A stretch of DNA of 64,000 nucleotides from positions 1 to 64,000 of the forward strand of contig JAGYJY010000015.1 in NCBI GenBank assembly GCA_018401745.1, read 5' to 3'. The notes under the pieces were generated by a model that was not told the origin of the DNA, made no database searches, and worked only from the letters and a program-made list of their open reading frames with translations. The position numbers and the translations under genes are program-made. Every line of letters starts with the position of its first letter. Positions within the stretch are counted from its first letter, which is position 1. Positions 60,259 to 60,502 of the stretch are shown piece by piece. The stretch is from Pirellulales bacterium (GTDB taxonomy: Bacteria; Planctomycetota; Planctomycetia; Pirellulales; UBA1268).

Positions 60259-60502
60259 CGGGACGGGTCCACGGGCCGCTGAGCGGCCTCGGCGTAGCCG
60301 AGGGGCCTTCGGCCCCCGCGGACCCGTCCCGTTCAATCGGGCTCACCCCTCGCTTGCGGTTTGAGGACGGCCTGTCCGACGCTGCGCGTCGGTCTGCGGC
60401 CGGGGAGCGGGGCCTGCGCGGGCGCGCAGCGGGACGGGTCCACGGGCCGCTGAGCGGCCTCGGCGTAGCCGAGGGGCCTTCGGCCCCCGCGGACCCGTCC
60501 CG
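60259..60502. repeat. Two family B cloverleaf repeats of a second sequence subtype
   Basis: Copies at 60259-60331 and 60430-60502, 73 bp each. Arms are CGGGACGGGTCCACGGG and CCCGCGGACCCGTCCCG. Inner hairpins are GCCGC-TGA-GCGGC, CCTCGGC-GTA-GCCGAGG and GGGGCC-TTC-GGCCCC. Between them lies the tail arm plus a GACGC-TGC-GCGTC hairpin module. Confidence 0.9.

Follow-up and report, generated by a model that had tools for sequence, protein, structure and literature searches.

Family B, a palindromic repeat of 73 bp, is best explained as a non-coding, non-autonomous mobile repeat of hairpin DNA, the flips and paired stems of which would have arisen mainly by template switching, perhaps aided by selection. 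A recent spread within one small clade of Planctomycetaceae is part of this explanation, to which we assign a probability of about 0.6. Intergenic DNA is where the repeat inserts, and a target duplication of 88 bp accompanies at least one dated insertion; tandem and nested duplications also add copies locally. The interior and the middle loop each exist in both orientations; the stems are fixed and the loops change.

The window, i.e., the whole stretch of 64,000 nucleotides that was analyzed, has a G+C content of 66% and represents contig C14 of the source genome (G000; 2.88 Mb, 28 contigs, 74% complete). The first-pass annotation had listed 73-bp palindromes at positions 3481, 47734, 51351, 58296, 58386, 60259 and 60430, and all seven are present as full copies of 73-74 nt (Table 1). 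The window contains the arm core GACGGGTC 17 times, 3.4 occurrences being expected, and 17 was reached by 0 of 100 shuffles. Exact arm pairs (GGGACGGGTC-N40-60-GACCCGTCCC) were found 88 times in the source genome and not at all with the reversed-pattern control; 85 are listed when each is read once with its orientation fixed.

Table 1. Family B copies and related segments in the window.
Feature	Position	Strand	Remarks
Family B copy	60259..60331	-	R polarity; 91.9 bits; interior TGCC-type-first on minus strand
Second Family B copy	60430..60502	-	Core identical to 60259 copy
Family B copy	58296..58369	+	One inserted base (74 nt); F polarity, flank tags in line with interior
Family B copy	58386..58458	+	F polarity; tandem neighbor of 58296 copy
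Family B copy	51351..51423	+	R polarity; nested mid-way inside another copy
Left half (arm and hairpin 1) of outer copy around 51351	51314..51348	+	D6
Right half (hairpin 3 and arm) of outer copy around 51351	51437..51470	+	D10
Family B copy	47734..47806	+	F polarity; commonest type (TT/AG)
Family B copy	3481..3553	+	R polarity, CT/AA; arms fit F TT/AG type, interior inverted inside
Damaged tandem duplicate of 3481 copy	3406..3468	+	Missing at orthologous locus of sister genome

A covariance model applied to 59 genomes of the genus, family and order showed that Family B is confined to the source genome and a single sister species within the genus (G001, deposited as uncultured Planctomycetaceae bacterium, CALCGM01, 82% complete). 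It was absent from two genus mates, each more than 90% complete, and from the outgroup genomes G002 and G003. The sister genome has about 30 or more copies, and the total for both species exceeds 100. This genome is a fragmented MAG with contigs that break at Family B repeats; short contigs (e.g., L176, L211, L230) often terminate in or beside a copy, so its copy number is a lower bound. Plasmid collections, phage collections and viral contigs contained no match, and Rfam had nothing at the Family B sites, a tRNA being its sole match. Matches to the arm pattern in Actinomadura, Streptomyces, a Syntrophobacterales MAG and an Omnitrophica MAG are due to chance, as the covariance model finds no element there.

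Each copy consists of a 17-bp outer arm around hairpin 1 (TGCC/GGCC stem, 4 bp), hairpin 2 (CCTCGGC stem, 7 bp) and hairpin 3 (CCGC stem, 4 bp), and the earlier observation that these inner hairpins end in triloops was confirmed for all three. The outer-arm pairs 1-11 and 14-17 are nearly invariant. The sequence beyond the arms is constant only in GCAAG at one end and TTC(A) at the opposite end; these tags are found in nearly all copies, and the element made up of GCAAG, the 73-bp cloverleaf and TTC is about 80 bp long. The four-way junction that had been proposed is the minimum-energy fold for DNA in all eight strands (both strands of four copies), with z-scores of -6.1 to -7.6 and equal stability in 0 of 200 shuffles. 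With RNA energies the proposal holds for the 60259/60430 type, but a single long, rod-like fold is favored for the copies at 3481, 47734, 51351 and 58296. In 69 of the 76 distinct copies the hairpin 2 loop reads RNA (purine-any-A) or TNY, compared to 42 in shuffles, and 0 of 20,000 shuffles reached 69. Triloops closed by a sheared purine-A pair are stable in DNA, and the R-N-A bias on one or the other strand fits such loops. G.T wobbles are more frequent on the TGCC-first strand, an asymmetry that comes from about two lineages and was given no weight.

The copies at 60259 and 60430, which sit between thiC and a cytochrome c gene, had been described as a second subtype in which every inner stem differs in sequence. 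In fact, their interior is the reverse complement of that of the other copies: 14 of 15 inner pairs are identical, the sole difference is a change from T-A to G-C, and on the minus strand the three hairpins follow one another in the same order as elsewhere. What had appeared as two subtypes with different stems is therefore one interior in two orientations relative to conserved flank tags, and the view of one family that keeps a four-way fold across its copies is supported. At 60259, for example, the tags GCGCAAG (60252-60258) and TTCA (60332-60335) are read on the plus strand, and the interior is opposed. Polarity was scored with the interior in a fixed direction, F being GCAAG-B-TTC and R being TTGAA-B-CTTGC. 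The F polarity was found for 46 copies in the source genome and 12 in the sister genome, the R polarity for 33 and 19, respectively, and five copies have mixed flank tags.

The extent of each flip was gauged with the arm pairs 12/62 and 13/61. A linked change of these arm bases had been noticed previously and is real, but the two pairs are usually wobbles or mismatches, and pairing is poorer there than anywhere else in the element. The orientation and arm classes are F TT/AG (45 copies), R CT/AA (2), F CA/CG (6), R CG/TG (22) and R TT/AG (21). F CA/CG and R CG/TG have identical arm letters relative to the flanks, and thus only the interior is inverted between them; the same applies to F TT/AG versus R CT/AA, i.e., the window copy at 3481 and its ortholog. 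In the R TT/AG copies, arms and interior are inverted jointly. These class combinations require at least two to three inversions. Flips are seen at three nested levels, namely the loop of hairpin 2, the interior within fixed arms, and the arms plus interior. At the innermost level the loop of the 7-bp stem flips, and it is found in the reverse-complement pairs AAA/TTT, ACA/TGT, AGA/TCT, GGA/TCC and GCA/TGC. The loops of the 4-bp stems do not flip, base 24 being A in 76 of 76 and base 50 being T in 75 of 76 distinct copies.

In the 34 distinct copies of the source genome, 99.1% of the pair cells hold standard pairs, compared to 96.3% in shuffles and 35-47% in slid controls. Double changes occupy 26 cells versus 10.7 in shuffles, with 0 of 500 shuffles reaching 26, though the copies share ancestry and some of the changes enter this count repeatedly. 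Among the 76 distinct copies of both species about five pairs show genuine double changes; the doubly changed pairs include 5/69 (AT>TA), 14/60 (CG>TA), 18/28 (TA>GC), 31/43 (TA>CG) and 34/40 (GC>CG), and the most variable pair is 13/61, which is often unpaired. The pairing that had been noted for the window copies is thus maintained in the larger set, and random unpaired drift of the inner stems was not seen in it. The double changes are true compensations; such changes are equally expected of structured RNA, of DNA hairpins and of template switching.

Seven copies at orthologous loci of the two species differ at 3 of 448 stem positions (0.7%), at 6 of 63 loop positions (9.5%) and at 185 of 2958 positions of the flanks within 400 bp (6.3%; stem versus flank p = 1e-8), with some bias to conserved pairs since recognizable arms were required. 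Two of the three stem differences fall on position 61 of the weak pair, and double changes were not seen in the stems of the seven pairs. The stem conservation could result from any of three processes, namely selection, conversion from other copies and template-switch repair. The lack of double changes favors selection or conversion from other copies over random template-switch repair alone, and part of the conservation is probably due to purifying selection or to conversion between copies. The orientation differs in none of the seven pairs, and thus inversion may be tied to transposition instead of occurring in place. In proteobacterial orthologs, inverted repeats show stronger conservation than the sequence around them (PMC8604942).

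The only cleanly dated insertion was found in the sister genome (C696), where a Family B copy and a few end bases lie between two copies of an 88-89-bp sequence, a target duplication of 88 bp. The target sequence is single in the source genome and in both outgroups (81-84% over 56-58 nt in the latter), and therefore the insertion with its duplication is derived. A second copy of the sister genome (C306) is absent from the source genome and lies within a direct repeat of about 48 bp, which is itself a dispersed repeat. Direct repeats with a score of at least 30 adjoin 11 of 121 copies, compared to 1.5% of shuffled flank pairs, and most copies are without long target duplications. At the loci of the window's own copies the outgroups lack whole repeat clusters, and thus the boundaries of single-copy insertions are not readable there. 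Other window repeats (about 47350, 50761 and 58049) have many matches in both outgroups.

Local multiplication takes several forms. The source genome contains an 85-bp tandem copy where the sister genome has one (L103 versus L124), and the copy at 60430 is part of a tandem unit of about 171 bp together with a 91-bp repeat at 60166-60256 and 60338-60428 (family D11). In about a dozen nested copies a complete element lies mid-way in another. The nested doublet is found at many sites with differing outer flanks, and from this dispersal the outer arms appear to define the mobile unit. A general preference for insertion into palindromes was rejected, because the excess of inverted flanks is due only to the nested copies. 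Some REPs are situated inside other palindromes (PMC3733652).

Based on simple codon-based gene calls, 59 of 62 copies with called neighbors are intergenic; the neighboring genes are tandem in 34 cases, convergent in 22 and divergent in 6, and relative to tandem genes no orientation is preferred (19 versus 15).

Several further repeats were observed. In the sister genome a Family B copy takes the place of the middle section of a different dispersed repeat (L140 versus L022; second copy of L122 versus L074), which resembles the replacement of the Family B middle by Family B in nested copies. Three 112-bp tandem units with 98-99% identity (50930-51307) adjoin the nested window copy. A dispersed repeat of about 200 bp with palindromic parts lies at 47309-47509, 58007-58207 and 59996-60196, and stretches of it match the sister genome and both outgroups, unlike Family B. 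A perfect 20-bp tandem repeat, ACACAGCGGAGCTGCGGCTA, is present in several copies at 6107-6255, and another hairpin-rich repeat (CCCCAAAAACCTCGGCTTTTTGGGG...) is found at 6836-6908 and 41296-41368 with 95% likeness.

In the favored explanation, Family B would form extruded hairpins or cruciforms, either while the DNA is replicated or in the supercoiled duplex. The polymerase would then switch templates from arm to arm, which would invert the intervening DNA and rewrite one arm from the other, and some activity in trans would move the element. Template switching between inverted repeats homogenizes arms and inverts spacers (PMC8604942), and a spacer in both orientations between homogenized arms is what Family B exhibits. 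Switching between the arms would explain the flips as well as the double changes without two subtypes. A mobilizing enzyme for Family B was not found. An unlikely alternative is that the structure is selected for a host function, as a cruciform to which a nucleoid, gyrase or repair protein binds or as an mRNA 3'-end hairpin. It would account for stems that are conserved at orthologous loci without double changes while loops drift, for the intergenic setting with few copies between divergent genes, and for the triloops of the C-(GNA)-G type, which are unusually stable as DNA. However, neither the two genus mates nor the remaining genomes of the family have Family B, the orientation of which is random relative to genes; it has no Rfam match and its site composition fits insertion. 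A short RNA as the leading idea was rejected because of the random strand; compensatory pair changes are present, but a consistent transcribed strand and a known RNA family are not.

The remaining alternatives concern the mode of movement. A MITE would depend on an autonomous DDE-type transposon acting in trans, and the terminal inverted repeats expected of it are present as the 17-bp arms. The presence or absence at orthologous sites and the outer arms that also bound the dispersed nested doublet agree with this, but the duplications comprise tens of bases, with 88 bp in the one polarized insertion, and not a fixed 2-10 bp, the interior is itself structured and conserved, and no partner was seen among the loci read in the incomplete genomes; the idea is regarded as quite improbable. 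Only slightly less doubtful is the idea that Family B forms a mobile DNA class of its own, which would move as a folded single-stranded cloverleaf by means of an enzyme not related to RAYTs, duplicate long stretches of target on insertion and have its interior turned during transfer; this was likened to the flip and flop forms of parvoviral hairpin ends. The association with a RAYT (TnpA-REP) gene that the first-pass annotation had suggested was looked for. Family B is palindromic, intergenic, of high copy number and clade-specific, as expected for a REP/REPIN-type repeat moved by a RAYT, and the source genome, 26% of which is missing, does contain two nearly identical RAYT-like Y1_Tnp genes (C17:16380-18482; 300 nt at 99%; one truncated). 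Yet both are flanked by a REP of their own, the 22-nt AAAAGGTTCCTGACACCTTTTT, all five genomic copies of which are located there (L048:4061-6620 = G000:C17:16060-18620), and the 10.5 kb around the genes contain no Family B copy. In G000 to G003 (74-94% complete) no RAYT gene is flanked by two inverted Family B copies, and G001, G002 and G003 have no Y1_Tnp gene, which for the Family B-rich and 82% complete sister genome argues against RAYT-driven spread. The element ends have no GTAG or CGTC head, CGTC being found only within the paired arm, and in spite of the high copy number (88) the element, with 73 nt and three inner hairpins, is not a single imperfect palindrome of 20-40 nt. The activity that moves Family B is probably not a RAYT, and RAYT-driven movement is considered very unlikely.

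The REP/BIME/REPIN repeats with their RAYTs (PMC2817692, PMC3116915, PMC3733652) resemble Family B in that they are short, palindromic, intergenic, high-copy and clade-specific, form mosaics with other repeats and have stems that keep pairing. In contrast to their single 20-40-nt hairpin, Family B is a 73-nt four-way cloverleaf without GTAG/CGTC head and without associated RAYT, its interior flips, and it has a long target duplication. ERIC and RU, which are MITE-like small mobile repeats of bacteria, are also non-autonomous, intergenic and structured (PMC2229807); in comparison, Family B has neither a short fixed target duplication nor a known parent transposon. Because the tested RAYT-REP features and the short duplication of MITEs are lacking, Family B is placed among the interspersed palindromic repeats as a member of neither group. 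With the orthologous, empty and doubled sites of the two sister genomes, it becomes possible to test how bacterial palindromes without a RAYT insert. The mobile GC clusters and double-hairpin elements of mitochondria (PMC4478555, PMC2800124) are G+C-rich hairpins that are present or absent at homologous sites, have merged and tandem palindromes and have no mobilizer assigned, and changes gather in loops also in the yeast clusters (PMC4478555). Family B differs from them in its bacterial chromosomal location, its larger branched fold, the lack of an AG target pair and the documented interior inversion. Homogenized arms, an inverted spacer and a dependence on arm length are shared with the template-switch spacer inversions (PMC8604942). 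Those inversions were described for single-copy gene loci, whereas Family B is dispersed and flips at three nested palindromic levels. As a caution, covariation and "subtypes" in palindromic repeats can stem from inversion and template switching and not from selection on a fold. The more than 100 natural copies of Family B allow a comparison of arm length, inversion of loops and repair of stems within a single element.
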